From the NCBI RefSeq assembly GCF_012641515.1, contig NZ_JABAHY010000003.1:62001-126000 (forward strand): a stretch of 64,000 nt of DNA, given 5' to 3'. The position numbers were made by a program, and so were the translations under genes. Positions 34,885 through 62,220 of this stretch are shown here, piece by piece. Within the stretch, counting starts at the first letter, position 1, and the number at the start of each line of letters is the position of its first letter. This DNA is from Nesterenkonia sedimenti. GTDB taxonomy: Bacteria > Actinomycetota > Actinomycetes > Actinomycetales > Micrococcaceae. The notes beneath the pieces were generated by a model that had not been told where the DNA came from, made no database searches, and saw only the letters and a list, made by a program, of their open reading frames with translations.

Positions 34885-35037
34885 ACGAGAAGCTCCCCGG
34901 CTGGCCGCGTGAGGGGGGACGCTAGATGGCCAACCGGGGAGCTATGAATCACTCGCACCTTGAAGAGGCACTATCTAAGGTACTCCTCTACCTGAACGGA
35001 ACACCCTGAATTCCCTGGACATTTCCTATGAATTTTT
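34885..35037 (-). ncRNA. candidate small RNA, copy 1 (C-rich-loop hairpin family)
   Basis: Read on the minus strand, GGAAA (35026-35022) and GTT (35002-35000) are spaced by 19 nt. They are followed by the box AAGGTGCGAGTGATTCA and a long hairpin: 34943-34928 pairs with 34906-34891 over 16 positions with one G-U. Nested inside it is a GCGT/ACGC hairpin whose loop contains six C. The whole segment aligns with 42092-42240. The hairpin ends about 50 nt before the mscS-type start, so a leader or attenuator role is also possible. Confidence 0.7.
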
Positions 35038-35303: not shown

Positions 35304-35438
35304 GTTATCAGCGAGTTGACCGGGGACTTCGCTCACTTCCCATCACTGCTTCCCCTCACGGGCGGCCCCCGGCAGCTGAGGCGCACCTGTGCCTTTGGTT
35401 AATGAGGAGTCGATTTTCGACTAGTGAGGAATATCGCT

Positions 35439-38400
35439 GTGTCTGTGCACAAGAAACTTCCCATGGCAGCTGTGGGCGGGCTGGCCGTCGGGCTGACCAT
35501 TCCGTTCGTTCCCGCTGCAGCTGGCGCTGCAACGGCTACCGCTCCTACGACACCGCCGACTCAGGGCAGCTCCGCGCTGGCCCCAACCTCGTCGTTGTCC
35601 CAGGGTGTGACAATCACCAACTCCCGCAGCTCCGGACAGTTCGTCCAGCCCCTGACCGGGACCTTCACTTTCAGCACTGGCTATGGCCCCCGCTGCAGCC
35701 CCAATCCCGGCGCCTCCTCCTATCACCTGGGCCAGGACCTGGTCGCCCCGGAGGGCACGCCGTTCCGGTCGATCGCTGCTGGCACGGTAGTCAGCACCCA
35801 GGATGGAACCTCCAGCCGGGCCGGCCATGTCATGGTTCGGCATAACATCGGCGGGCAGACCTACCACTCTCGGTATCTGCATGTCTGGGACGGCACCTCT
35901 CATGTGGAGGTCGGTGACACCGTTCAGGCAGGTCAGACCATCGGACTGGTGGGCAACTCCGGGGTCAGCACTGCCCCGCATCTGCATCTGGAAATCTGGC
36001 AGGGCGCCTGGCACAGCGGCACTGCCCTGGACCCCCATGAGTTCCTCTCCGCCCGCGGGGTGGATATGCAGGCTGCGGCAGCCCGGGAATACCAGCCCAG
36101 CATCTGCGATGACGACTCTGACTCCTCCGGAGGGTCCTCCTCCAGTGGTTCATCGCCGGCTGGTTCCACCGGGTCGGGTTCCTCCGGCTCCTCCTCTGGC
36201 TCTTCTTCGAGCTCCTCGGCCTCCGGCACCTATGAGGTGGAATCGGCAAGTGGTCTCTGGATGCGTTCGGGACCTGGCACGGGGCACAGTACTGTTCGCG
36301 GACTGAGCAACGGCGCCCAGGTAGAGGTCACTGGATCCCAGGGATCCTGGTACCAGATTCGAGTCAATGGCCAATCCGGTTGGTCCCATAGTTCCTATCT
36401 GCAGCCGGCCAGCGGTGGCTCCTCAACCACCCCGGCCGGTTCAGGTGGAAGTGGTTCTTCCTCCGGGTCCTCCAGCAGCGGTTCTTCCTCCGGGTCCTCC
36501 AGCACGGGTTCCTCGAGTTCATCCAGCTCCTCTTCCAGCGGCAGCGCTCGGGTGACCGCCGGGGTCAATATGCGCTCCGGGGCCAGCATGAGCTCCCGAG
36601 TGGAGCGGATTGTCCCTGCCGGCACCTCGGTGGATGTGCTGGGGCAGAACGGCGGCTGGTATCAGATCCGCACTGGTGGAAACACCGGCTGGGTCTGGCA
36701 GGACTTCCTGAACGCCTCCTCCAGTTCGGGTTCCTCAGGATCGAGCTCTTCTGGCTCCAGTTCCTCAGGTTCGGGATCCTCCAGCTCCGGCTCTTCCTCC
36801 TCCGGTTCCAGCACCTCGACTGCCGGGACCTCTTCCTCCTCTGGTTCGGGTTCCTCGAGCTCTTCCAGCTCCTCGAACTCCTCGGTGGCCCAAATTGCCC
36901 AGCAGGTGATCGACGGTCAGTTCGGCAATGGTGCTGACCGCATTCAACGGCTCAACGACGCCGGTCACGATGCCTCTGCAGTTCAGGCAGAGGTCAACCG
37001 TCTGCTCGGTGGAGGCTCCAGCTCGTCTGGTTCGAGTTCCTCCTCGTCCTCGAACTCTGGTTCATCCAGCAGCCATTCTTCGAGAAGTTCCTCCGGATCC
37101 TCCAGCTCCGGTTCAAGTTCCTCCGGTTCTAGCTCTTCAGGCTCCAGTTCCTCGAGCTCTAGCTCCTCGGGCTCCTCAGGCTCCTCGAGCAGTGGCTCCT
37201 CCAATTCAGGTTCCTCCAGCTCAAGCTCAAGTTCGACAAGCGGGTCCTCCAGCAGCTCCGGATCCTCCTCGTCATCGTCCTCTTCGCGGGCTTCCAGCGG
37301 TGAGGTGCGGGTGACTGCCGGGGTGAATATGCGCTCGGCCCCGAATTTGGGCAACAACATCCAGAAGGTTGTTCCGGCTGGTACTACCTCTGAGGTGCTC
37401 AGCCGCAGCGGCAGCTGGTACCAGATCGAGCACAACGGTGACACCGGTTGGGTCTGGGATGAGTTCCTGGATGTCTCGGCTGCCAGCGTTTCAAGCTCCT
37501 CCGGTTCCAGCTCTTCCGGCAGCTCCAACTCATCCGGTTCCGGCTCATCGACCTCTGGCTCCTCCAGCTCATCCGGTTCCTCGAGCTCTTCAGGCTCCTC
37601 GTCATCCTCCGGGTCCAGCTCCAGCTCCAGCTCCTCATCCTCAAGTGACTCCGCCCGGGTCACCGCTGGTGTGAATATGCGATCCGGAGCCAGCATGAGC
37701 TCCTCAGTGCAGCGCCAGCTGCCGGCCGGCACCACTGTGGATGTTCTGGATAACAACGGCGGTTGGTACGAGGTCCGGGCCAGCGGCAACACCGGCTGGG
37801 TCTGGCGGGACTTCCTGGATGTTCCCTCCGGCAGCTCCGGATCGAGTTCTTCAGGTTCAAGCTCATCTGGTTCGGGTTCCTCGAGCTCCGGCTCTTCGGG
37901 GTCGAGTTCCTCGGGATCCTCCAGCTCTGGGTCTTCGAGCTCGGACTCTTCCAACTCCTCCGGTTCAGGTTCCTCCAGCTCCTCAGGCCGGACTGGCCCC
38001 TCAAGCGGGCAGCACCGGCAGAGCAGCCATGGTCCCTACAGCGCAGCCTGGGACCGGCTGGCCGAATGTGAGTCCAACCAGAACTGGTCCATCAACACCG
38101 GTAACGGCTACTACGGCGGCCTACAGTTCTCCGCGCAGTCCTGGCGGGCTGTCGGTGGCACCGGTCTCCCCCACCAGGCCTCCAAGCAGGAGCAGATCGA
38201 ACGCGCCTATGAGCTCTGGAAGATCCAGGGCTGGGGCGCCTGGCCGGCCTGTTCACAGAGTCTGGGTCTCTCCGGGGATCCCGGCGGCTGGGGCGATGAC
38301 TACTTCGATGTCCACGGTGGCACCCAGACCTCCTCGGGCACTGTCTCCTCTGGTGAGATCCGCACCTCCTATTCGGTGCCGCTGCGTGAGGAGCCCAGCA

Positions 38401-38546
38401 CCTCTGCGGAGAAGCTGGCTCAGATCCCGCGCGGCGAGGTGCTGCGCACCGGTGACACTGAGGGCACCTGGGTGCAGGTGGAGTTCGAGACTGACTCCGG
38501 CACTCAGCTCGGCTGGGTGGATCTGACCTACCTCACCGCTGCCTGA
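35439..38546 (+). CDS. secreted multidomain wall hydrolase: M23 endopeptidase + SH3b x5 + CW_7 + Rpf domain
   Basis: This secreted protein of about 1035 residues has a signal peptide (about 1-30). A complete M23/LytM endopeptidase follows, with zinc ligands His96, Asp100 and His183 plus His181 (HLGQD, HLHLE). Next come SH3b (about 265-325), SH3b (368-425), a CW_7 muropeptide-binding repeat (482-527), SH3b (622-680), SH3b (740-797), an Rpf lysozyme-like domain (865-945) with catalytic Glu878 in ECES, and a final SH3b (973-1035). Linkers are almost pure Ser/Gly. GTG 35439 is preferred because GAGGAA lies 7 nt upstream; GTG 35424 is possible. It should cut both glycan and peptide bonds. Confidence 0.9.
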   Translation: MSVHKKLPMAAVGGLAVGLTIPFVPAAAGAATATAPTTPPTQGSSALAPTSSLSQGVTITNSRSSGQFVQPLTGTFTFSTGYGPRCSPNPGASSYHLGQDLVAPEGTPFRSIAAGTVVSTQDGTSSRAGHVMVRHNIGGQTYHSRYLHVWDGTSHVEVGDTVQAGQTIGLVGNSGVSTAPHLHLEIWQGAWHSGTALDPHEFLSARGVDMQAAAAREYQPSICDDDSDSSGGSSSSGSSPAGSTGSGSSGSSSGSSSSSSASGTYEVESASGLWMRSGPGTGHSTVRGLSNGAQVEVTGSQGSWYQIRVNGQSGWSHSSYLQPASGGSSTTPAGSGGSGSSSGSSSSGSSSGSSSTGSSSSSSSSSSGSARVTAGVNMRSGASMSSRVERIVPAGTSVDVLGQNGGWYQIRTGGNTGWVWQDFLNASSSSGSSGSSSSGSSSSGSGSSSSGSSSSGSSTSTAGTSSSSGSGSSSSSSSSNSSVAQIAQQVIDGQFGNGADRIQRLNDAGHDASAVQAEVNRLLGGGSSSSGSSSSSSSNSGSSSSHSSRSSSGSSSSGSSSSGSSSSGSSSSSSSSSGSSGSSSSGSSNSGSSSSSSSSTSGSSSSSGSSSSSSSSRASSGEVRVTAGVNMRSAPNLGNNIQKVVPAGTTSEVLSRSGSWYQIEHNGDTGWVWDEFLDVSAASVSSSSGSSSSGSSNSSGSGSSTSGSSSSSGSSSSSGSSSSSGSSSSSSSSSSSDSARVTAGVNMRSGASMSSSVQRQLPAGTTVDVLDNNGGWYEVRASGNTGWVWRDFLDVPSGSSGSSSSGSSSSGSGSSSSGSSGSSSSGSSSSGSSSSDSSNSSGSGSSSSSGRTGPSSGQHRQSSHGPYSAAWDRLAECESNQNWSINTGNGYYGGLQFSAQSWRAVGGTGLPHQASKQEQIERAYELWKIQGWGAWPACSQSLGLSGDPGGWGDDYFDVHGGTQTSSGTVSSGEIRTSYSVPLREEPSTSAEKLAQIPRGEVLRTGDTEGTWVQVEFETDSGTQLGWVDLTYLTAA

Positions 38547-42091: not shown

Positions 42092-42240
42092 AAAAACTCA
42101 CAGGAAACTTCCAGCGACTTTAGGGGTTTCCATCAAGGTCTGCCCCTAGATTATTAACTACCTCATCAAGGTGCGAGTGATTCAAACCCCCGGGTTGGCA
42201 TTCTAAGCGTCCCCCTCACGCAGCCACCCGGGGGTTTTCT
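42092..42240 (+). ncRNA. candidate small RNA, copy 2 (C-rich-loop hairpin family)
   Basis: GGAAA (42103-42107), an 18-nt spacer and GTT (42126-42128) resemble a SigH/SigR-type promoter. The box AAGGTGCGAGTGATTCA ends at 42184 and is followed by the stem AAACCCCCGGGT/ACCCGGGGGTTT (42184-42195 with 42226-42237). An inner GGC/GCC and a GCGT-CCCCCTC-ACGC hairpin lie inside, then TTTTCT. The outer stem differs from copy 1 on both sides together. No plus-strand gene follows, so the transcript would be free-standing, or the 3' end of the Rieske message. Confidence 0.72.
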
Positions 42241-42259
42241 CATGTCCGGGCACCTGCGG

Positions 42260-61359: not shown

Positions 61360-62220
61360 TCAGTCTTCGTATTGGGCCAGTTTCTCCGCCTGGGCCTCGG
61401 CGATCTCGGTAAAGGTCTCGGCATCGACTGCTACGGCGGTCATCATCAGGAGGTTGCTGCCGAAATCAGCGGTGACTGAGTAGCCCTCAATGACCTGGAG
61501 GTCACCGTCCTCAGGATCCTCCATTTCGATCTGTCGGCTGATCCCACTCATGGGCCATTCCGTTGAGTCCAGAGTGAAGGCTTCGATCTCGATCTGGTCG
61601 CCCTCGGCTTCAAGGGGGCTGGCCGCGCAATGTTCGGCGATGTTCTCCCAGATGCCATTGGACTCCACCCCGGTGCCCTCGGGGTAGCTGAGCATCCACA
61701 CGTAGACCTCCGCGGATGCGTCCACTCCACTGGCCCCGGAGGCGGTGGGCAGCCGGTATTCATGCATCACTCCGGTCTGGGGGTCCTCACCGACCAGTTC
61801 GAGGTTGACCCGGTCCATGTCCTGGGCGCATTCACTCTGCCCGAAGGCGTCCTGGTATTCGCTGCGTTCAACGGCGATGTACTCCTCGAAGTACCCCAGT
61901 CCGGAGTAGGTGGAATGACCTTCTGCGGATTCGGGCAGTTCCCCGGGAGCCAGCAGCAGTTCCATCATCTGCTCCTCGTCCAGGGGGCCGATGCTCTCAG
62001 TTTCCTCTGCCGTATCCCCCTCGCCGTCCTCGTCATCGGGCTCTGCGCCCTCTGTGCCCTCATAGGTCTGCGGGGCGGCTTCTTCAGTGGCTGTCTCGGC
62101 AGGCGGCTCTTGGGAATCCGGTTCGGGCTCCACACAGCCGGTGAGCAGGCCTAAGGCCACGACGGCACAGCAGGTCACCGGCGTCAGGGCAGCAGGCCTC
62201 CGTATCGAGGAAGAAAGCAC
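61360..62220 (-). CDS. secreted lipoprotein with PknH-like sensor fold (hypothetical)
   Basis: This 286-residue lipoprotein starts with GTG and has TACCCT 7 nt upstream, a leaderless layout. Its lipobox is LLTGC (about residues 25-29). An acidic Glu/Thr/Pro-rich linker covers about 30-85, and a globular domain of about 190 residues has two cysteines (SECAQD, EHCAAS). Landmarks and order match the secreted protein at 8279-9283, so both belong to one family. Function unknown. Confidence 0.75.
   Translation of the reverse strand: MLSSSIRRPAALTPVTCCAVVALGLLTGCVEPEPDSQEPPAETATEEAAPQTYEGTEGAEPDDEDGEGDTAEETESIGPLDEEQMMELLLAPGELPESAEGHSTYSGLGYFEEYIAVERSEYQDAFGQSECAQDMDRVNLELVGEDPQTGVMHEYRLPTASGASGVDASAEVYVWMLSYPEGTGVESNGIWENIAEHCAASPLEAEGDQIEIEAFTLDSTEWPMSGISRQIEMEDPEDGDLQVIEGYSVTADFGSNLLMMTAVAVDAETFTEIAEAQAEKLAQYED

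Follow-up and report, generated by a model that had tools for sequence, protein, structure and literature searches.

The 64,000-nt window analysed here (positions 62,001 to 126,000, forward strand, of contig NZ_JABAHY010000003.1 of Nesterenkonia sedimenti, assembly GCF_012641515.1) harbors two copies of an element, which are separated by 7 kb, run on opposite strands and were found to be alignable over about 150 bp, as an initial annotation of this DNA had reported: copy 2 at 42092-42240 on the plus strand and copy 1 at 35037-34885 on the minus strand. Both contain the 17-nt box AAGGTGCGAGTGATTCA, located at 42168-42184 (+) and 34961-34945 (-), for which no other match with up to three mismatches was detected in the window (shuffle mean 0.10, with 1 of 100 shuffles reaching two). 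Across the 3.1-Mb genome, the exact 15-mer GGTGCGAGTGATTCA is restricted to these two places, and the three further places obtained when two mismatches are allowed do not exceed the six given by the reversed pattern. Both elements are probably genes of a small regulatory RNA (sRNA) family that is unlisted in Rfam and spread across the Micrococcaceae; in our view the family is new, whereas the kind of RNA is known. The window also contains a 1040-residue open reading frame at 35424-38546, which by eye resembles a secreted protein of the M23/SH3 type whose Ser/Gly linkers are very long.

From 5' to 3', each gene is constructed of a TANNNT -10 box placed behind four repeats, a short 5' hairpin that runs into the box AAGGUGCGAGUGAU, and a covarying terminator hairpin. 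The gene of copy 2 spans 42157-42242 (+), where the covariance model R2 gave a match of 90.2 bits, copy 2 itself being among the 22 sequences of R2. Upstream of it, a candidate regulator site TCACAGG / TTCCAGC / TTAGGGG / CATCAAG occupies 42098-42137 (+) with exact 11-bp spacing and a degenerate third unit, followed by the -10 box TAGATT at 42147-42152 (+), which agrees with the TANNNT position across copies. The 5' hairpin UACCU-CAUCA-AGGUG, with its fixed box side, lies at the probable RNA start (42159-42173, +) and leads into the near-invariant box AAGGUGCGAGUGAUUCA at 42168-42184 (+), in which GUGCGAGUGAU is proposed as the mRNA-pairing seed on the grounds of its conservation and of the enrichment of its complements upstream of gene starts. 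The terminator hairpin, AAACCCCCGGGT.../...ACCCGGGGGTTT with a short U tract, extends over 42185-42242 (+) and is capped by the C-rich apical loop CCCCCUC at 42211-42217 (+). Copy 1, which is outside the R2 seed, was matched by the same model with 81.9 bits at 34885-34972 (-); its 11-bp repeat array (34992-35031, -) has a degenerate third and an imperfect fourth unit, and is followed by the -10 box TACCTT (34977-34982, -), the box AAGGUGCGAGUGAUUCA (34945-34961, -) and the terminator hairpin (34891-34943, -) with the loop CCCCCCUC at 34918-34911.

The anatomy bears on several details of the initial annotation, which had interpreted the duplicated element as a small-RNA gene. Its inner stem GCGT/ACGC is real, with a C5TC loop in copy 2 and a C6TC loop in copy 1. 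The proposed T-tail is present, albeit short and impure (TTTTCT; TTCTCGTTT). The spaced motif GGAAA-N18/19-GTT, which had been regarded as a common feature, was recovered in just 12 of 201 copies (15 of 201 when GGAA is followed by A, C or T) and was rejected as a promoter, and the GGAAA and TCCAG singled out there correspond to the first two of the four 11-bp repeats. The transcript start, formerly placed near 42137, is likelier to fall at about 42159, as judged from the -10 box.

A TANNNT hexamer stands 13-15 nt before CCT in 200 of the 201 copies, at 14 nt in 157 of them. Ahead of the -10 box, the dinucleotide CA peaks at -46, -35, -24 and -13 (154, 141, 88 and 144 of 200 promoters, the median offset giving 9), which places four repeats in registers spaced exactly 11 bp, as is expected of the direct repeats of OmpR/PhoB (PhoP-type) regulators with a 7-bp motif and a 4-bp spacer. 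The PhoP of Mycobacterium tuberculosis is reported to recognize the direct repeats TCACAGC-N4-TCACAGC, in which the 4-bp spacing is strict, and to bind three or four consecutive motifs more tightly than two (PMC4832192); the first repeat unit of copy 2 reads TCACAGG. Twelve Trans_reg_C matches were counted in the own genome of the window. The L200 protein, which was chosen by eye for its PhoP likeness and is the sole regulator protein compared with the PDB, found its best match in M. tuberculosis PhoP (286.9 bits, vs 182.3 for PrrA, 172.7 for MtrA and 157.4 for RegX3), and is by this best PDB match only likely to be the PhoP ortholog. We infer that the genes are transcribed, and that a PhoP-like sensor system is likely to switch them on.

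The 5-bp hairpin conforms to the consensus YRCCU-CWUSA-AGGUG and is followed by the box and the terminator hairpin. In its helix the box side never changes, while in nearly all copies the base opposite U is A or G and the base opposite G is C or U, which is compatible with G-U pairing. In the alignment A5 (75 matches, 68 distinct rows), which was fitted to the model and is thus tilted toward the structure, 97.6% of cells pair vs 79.7% in shuffles, and 276 cells are changed on both sides vs 69 in shuffles; the pairs with a double change (14 of 24) are barely above the 12.2 of the shuffles, and sliding the partner by 1-3 columns left at most 50.2% paired. The covariation of the outer stem noticed earlier was thereby confirmed on a far larger set of sequences. 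The broader interpretation of a duplicated, covarying small-RNA gene conserved outside proteins is supported; conservation extends beyond the terminator stem, the 5' box being the most conserved part. The apical loop of the Nesterenkonia copies is C-rich and ends in UC, and the terminator in other genera often differs in sequence. The box is not strictly invariant, since the sRNA copy of L377 (G100:C19:561931-561942) has AAAGTGCGAGTGAT and not AAGGTGCGAGTGAT.

Some variants of the architecture were also observed. A box in tandem or nearly so (for example AAGGTGCGAGTGATGAAGGTGCGAGTGATGA) is present in at least L091, L157 and L182, among some Micrococcus-type copies, and suggests a repeated functional unit. 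Ten copies carry the box of a sub-class that opens with CCTTCTCAAGGTGCGAGTGAT (L092, L095, L096, L102, L113, L163, L168 and L177 among the copies listed), in which the terminator differs and its loop region holds CCTCCTT, an anti-Shine-Dalgarno (anti-SD)-like sequence.

The search of relatives with a covariance model, which the initial annotation had suggested, revealed members in many of them. A model designated R1, built from 60 copies, detected the family in 137 of 245 Micrococcaceae genomes and in 27 of 32 genera (E<=0.001), some of them weakly, with several genera at a best E of just 1e-4 to 1e-3 under rough calibration and strict filters; the Nesterenkonia copies scored 68-96 bits and many other genera lower. 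Because the right arm was poorly aligned in R1, R2 was built on a structure set by the author, using 22 of the 60 copies. When copy 2 was searched as DNA against 58 genomes, 33 of them gave a match, including its own, 28 of the 29 other Nesterenkonia genomes (2-6 matches each), three genomes of other Micrococcaceae genera, and one genome beyond the family with a weak match. Furthermore, a pattern scan of named genomes returned at least 118 stretches. Among the 80 matches listed, thirteen genera were represented (Nesterenkonia, Arthrobacter, Glutamicibacter, Paeniglutamicibacter, Micrococcus, Citricoccus, Kocuria, Zhihengliuella, Auritidibacter, Yaniella, Enteractinococcus, Tersicoccus and Zafaria), together with entries titled Micrococcaceae bacterium and an outlier from the Ignavibacteria. 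The box is conserved in these loci partly by selection, since the pattern required it; the DNA search and the R1 search provide the evidence that is free of an exact box requirement. The Ignavibacteria match (L089, a metagenome-assembled genome) has no such hairpin and was taken as chance, as were the four contigs matched in a viral scan, none of which shows the hairpin context (best R1 score 14.8 bits, E 0.094, in L037); three of them (L036, L038 and L039) look near-identical. G013 is the sole genome of the genus searched in which neither the DNA search nor R1 detected the sRNA, and it is possibly a natural knock-out.

At the gathering scores of Rfam 15, the window matched no family, and neither did the sRNA in 16 loci of relatives, in which the sole match was a SAM-IV riboswitch at 5323-5204 of the Micrococcus terreus contig L125. 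Permissive Rfam scans of both copies returned chance-level matches only, and no account of the family was found in the literature within reach of the search, most subscription papers lying outside it.

The genomic surroundings are variable. In at least five of the 16 loci (L009, L012, L018, L020 and L028), a type I copy, characterized by UGCCUCUUC or UGCCUCUUG, stands just before an S4-domain-like gene by eye, and in nine loci a second copy follows about 170 bp further on. A Rieske-like gene precedes the type II copy in L019, as it does in the window (by eye). Copy 1 of the window is followed after about 39 nt by an mscS-like gene on the same strand (by eye) and not by an S4-domain-like gene. 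Since the neighbours change between loci, independent trans-acting genes are favoured.

For an sRNA of this kind, the seed GUGCGAGUGAU predicts mRNA sites of the form AUCACUCGCAC. Their positions were assessed in four sets, with gene starts assigned by the author's simple codon-usage caller and with an interval of -50 to 0 for the site centre that was fixed after the first matches had been seen. In set A (four Nesterenkonia genomes of six scanned), 5 of 56 sites of a 9-mer fall on the sense strand within 50 nt upstream of a start (background 1.8%, P=0.0035). In set B (24 Nesterenkonia genomes), the corresponding figure for an 11-mer is 10 of 38 (background 1.7%, P=5e-10), or 8 of 36 once three orthologs are counted as one (P=1e-7), 38 of 39 sites being used because L323 meets a contig end. 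Set C, comprising 24 genomes of nine other genera, gave 3 of 24 for the 11-mer (background 1.35%, P=0.004) and 2 of 23 with orthologs merged (P=0.04), 24 of 25 sites being used without the variant sRNA copy L377. In set D, 2 of the 10 sites of the pattern TCACTCGCAY in the own genome lie upstream of a start on the sense strand (background 2.3%, P=0.02), the two left out of 12 being the sRNA genes themselves. The choice of the 11-mer for sets B and C followed inspection of the 9-mer matches, and sets A and B overlap (for example L237=L307, L246=L298 and L278=L301), none of the ten upstream hits of set B being in A genomes. With an earlier interval of -45 to +15, the counts were 7 of 56 (P=2e-4), 7 of 30 (P=1e-6), 3 of 25 (P=0.007) and 2 of 10 (P=0.03).

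The enrichment is strand-specific: over sets A to D, 20 sense sites were obtained vs 2 antisense sites (0, 2, 0 and 0, the two being among 38 in set B), so that complementarity of the seed to leaders and start regions, as expected of a trans-acting sRNA, is confined largely to one strand. For a scrambled-pattern control with just six sites, three of them orthologs, no sense and two antisense hits were counted. In total number, the 11-mer occurs 39 times in the 24 Nesterenkonia genomes vs 4 times for the reversed pattern (scrambled 6, its reverse 10), and 25 times vs 11 for the control in the 24 other genomes, an excess that may partly reflect codon usage. Hits within coding sequence may result from signal-peptide codons (ATC ACT CGC; TCA CTC GCA), and the strict test therefore takes upstream hits only. 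Few upstream sites belong to the own genome, namely one in set A and two in set D. In 16 of the 20 upstream cases, the site begins 30-44 nt ahead of the start codon.

The 20 upstream loci correspond to 17 distinct genes, 16 of which, as a raw count, look like envelope or transport genes (two by eye only). They encode three SBP_bac_1/8 solute-binding proteins, an NlpA lipoprotein, an Nramp transporter, glutamate and alanine symporters, a FecCD permease, a Sugar_tr/MFS transporter, COX2 (ctaC), Lipoprotein_Ltp, LytR-CpsA-Psr, PASTA and PPC proteins, and one FGGY sugar kinase, in addition to L256 and L324, which have signal-like starts by eye and were outside the Pfam scan. Sites at or just inside the start, where codon bias is possible, are found for BCCT, NMT1-like and further solute-binding proteins; a DUF4212 gene (L308) has its site 31 nt upstream of the start and was uncounted by the caller, and one start-region hit falls within an alaS-like coding sequence (L403, by eye). 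The site of the NMT1-like solute-binding protein is kept in the close orthologs of G014 and G029 and altered in that of G009, and among distant paralogs no consistent site was found. Eleven sites chosen by the author were predicted to form duplexes of -20.2 to -37.0 kcal/mol (z -2.4 to -6.6), energies that are circular in that the sites were picked by complementarity. In three of the predicted duplexes (L395, L398 and L324), the 5' CCUC of the sRNA also pairs with GAGG near the ribosome site, and since GAGG is common there, this second contact is a suggestion. As a separate observation, the box complement GGGATCACTCGCAC(T/G)CAT ends about 15 nt before a tRNA-Gly(CCC) gene in six Nesterenkonia loci (L307 in the own genome at G000:C9:32773-32784, L298, L300, L303, L318 and L325), and may reflect either inheritance of a single sequence or a site for pairing within the tRNA precursor.

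The cytochrome oxidase gene ctaC was followed across the genus, using 29 of 30 loci after the broken gene of G016 had been left out. The site core TCGCAC is kept in 25 of the 29 aligned leaders, where it lies in the stretch ahead of the ribosome-binding block that is most clearly conserved, and variants such as CATTCGCAC retain pairing via G-U. G013, in which the sRNA went undetected, keeps TCGCTCGCAC in its ctaC leader, which carries no clear weight for or against targeting.

Taken together, we consider it probable that the element is a PhoP-type-controlled, multi-copy, trans-acting base-pairing sRNA that represses nutrient import and surface proteins. In the proposed mechanism, an OmpR/PhoB-type regulator, likeliest the PhoP ortholog, would bind as tandem subunits to the four 11-bp repeats overlapping the -35 region and recruit RNA polymerase to a promoter of the activator type. 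The resulting RNA of about 85 nt would consist of the 5-bp hairpin, the box with the seed GUGCGAGUGAU, and a strong terminator hairpin at its end. The seed would then pair with AUCACUCGCAC-like sites, mostly about 30-44 nt before start codons and in some cases at the start codon, and in at least three of the predicted duplexes the 5' CCUC would additionally engage a GAGG close to the ribosome-binding site. Initiation would thereby be blocked, rather than activated, on the mRNAs of solute-binding lipoproteins, symporters, permeases, cytochrome oxidase subunit II and other surface proteins.

The initial annotation had pointed to C-rich-loop sRNAs that pair with ribosome sites. Pairing near ribosome sites is supported as probable, the evidence favouring the 5' box and not the C-rich loop as the pairing element. 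A 6C-type sRNA, whose C-rich terminator loop pairs with G-rich ribosome sites and whose box would be a stabiliser or protein site, appears unlikely. The CCC(C)UC loop of Nesterenkonia does stay constant while its stem covaries, CCC lies in a predicted loop of 160 of the 201 copies, and such C-rich-loop pairing near ribosome sites is reported for B11 (6C) in mycobacteria (PMC10470900); yet the remaining 41 copies have no CCC in any predicted loop despite their near-invariant box, there is one C-loop hairpin instead of two and no match to RF01066, and it is the box complements that are enriched upstream of starts. The C-rich loop may be a second contact. We regard it as quite unlikely that the box is a DNA operator, common to sRNA and transport genes, for a repressor acting just downstream of the start site. 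Identical letters at both types of place and the frequency of transporter genes among repressor targets would suit an operator, but the letters near starts are mostly the reverse complement with respect to transcription (the 20 sense vs 2 antisense sites), as pairing predicts, the ctaC sites near the ribosome site drift in a wobble-compatible manner, and the exact 15-mer is confined to the two sRNA genes in the own genome.

That the box (AAGG...GUGAU) serves as a titrator, mimicking or binding the 16S rRNA end or an RNA-binding protein, seems very unlikely: sense-specific complements upstream of transport genes are not predicted by it, even if the tandem boxes of some Micrococcus-type copies (L091, L157 and L182) would be in its favour, and AAGG and GUGAU may resemble parts of the anti-SD complement. 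Some copies read ATG AAG GTG CGA GTG ATG, and the loop offers ATG or TTG in frame with two GUG codons in 89 of the 201; nevertheless, a leader peptide or small open reading frame is highly improbable and was dropped, given that the other 112 copies have ATC, TTC, CTC or ATA, that 101 of the 201 lack an in-frame stop in the segment read, which extends beyond the terminator, and that the codons downstream are not conserved. The reading with almost nothing left to it holds that there are two similar terminators plus the promoter of a neighbouring gene and no functional RNA. It would draw on the closeness of copy 1 to the mscS-like gene on its strand, and is contradicted by conservation, as box and hairpin are kept in 60 copies, with neighbours differing in the loci examined, and also in other genera.

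Few actinobacterial trans-acting sRNAs have known targets. A family that is widespread among mostly harmless, culturable bacteria, and for which a candidate regulator, a defined seed and a list of targets open to testing are at hand, would open the question of multi-target sRNA control of nutrient uptake in a group from which Hfq is not known. For the pairing sRNA preferred here, a more ambitious formulation is put forward tentatively, at a little under an even chance: a Micrococcaceae counterpart of GcvB, whose PhoP-type-driven copies, with one invariant 11-nt seed clamped upstream of ribosome sites and a 5' anti-SD, would jointly tune the whole surface-uptake and respiratory programme without a known RNA chaperone. 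The GcvB-type sRNAs of enterobacteria, which are Hfq-dependent, use one conserved single-stranded seed on many leaders of periplasmic solute-binding proteins, and the present family would resemble them in silencing importers by base-pairing; the two differ in their seeds and structures, in phylum, and in the regulator. The LhrC, CcsR and cuckoo sRNA families likewise have multiple similar copies in a genome that act through a common seed, with other sequences and other hosts.

Among Rfam families, rdlD (RF01813) was the top permissive match of copy 2, with 17.4 bits vs a gathering score of 50 and an E of 0.57, which corresponds to chance. The 6C RNA (RF01066), for which a comparison had been recommended, matches neither copy even at E<=10 (gathering score 47 bits) and was not found at E<=1e-3 under strict filters in the own genome or in 29 other Nesterenkonia. 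It resembles the present family in being actinobacterial and short, with a C-rich loop on a strong hairpin, and differs in that the hits in other genera (L040-L043, over the cut-off) show two C-loop hairpins and no AAGGUGCGAGUGAU box by eye, in contrast with the single C-loop hairpin of the Nesterenkonia copies. Two 6C hits below the cut-off, L044 (G034) and L046 (G052), display three or more hairpin-type C-runs in a row by eye. With respect to regulation, the likeness, by description, is to Mcr7 of M. tuberculosis, which is reported as a PhoP-dependent sRNA with a single locus that acts on an exported-protein pathway via its target tatC (PMC4038636), in contrast with the importer set and the multiple copies proposed for the sRNA described here.
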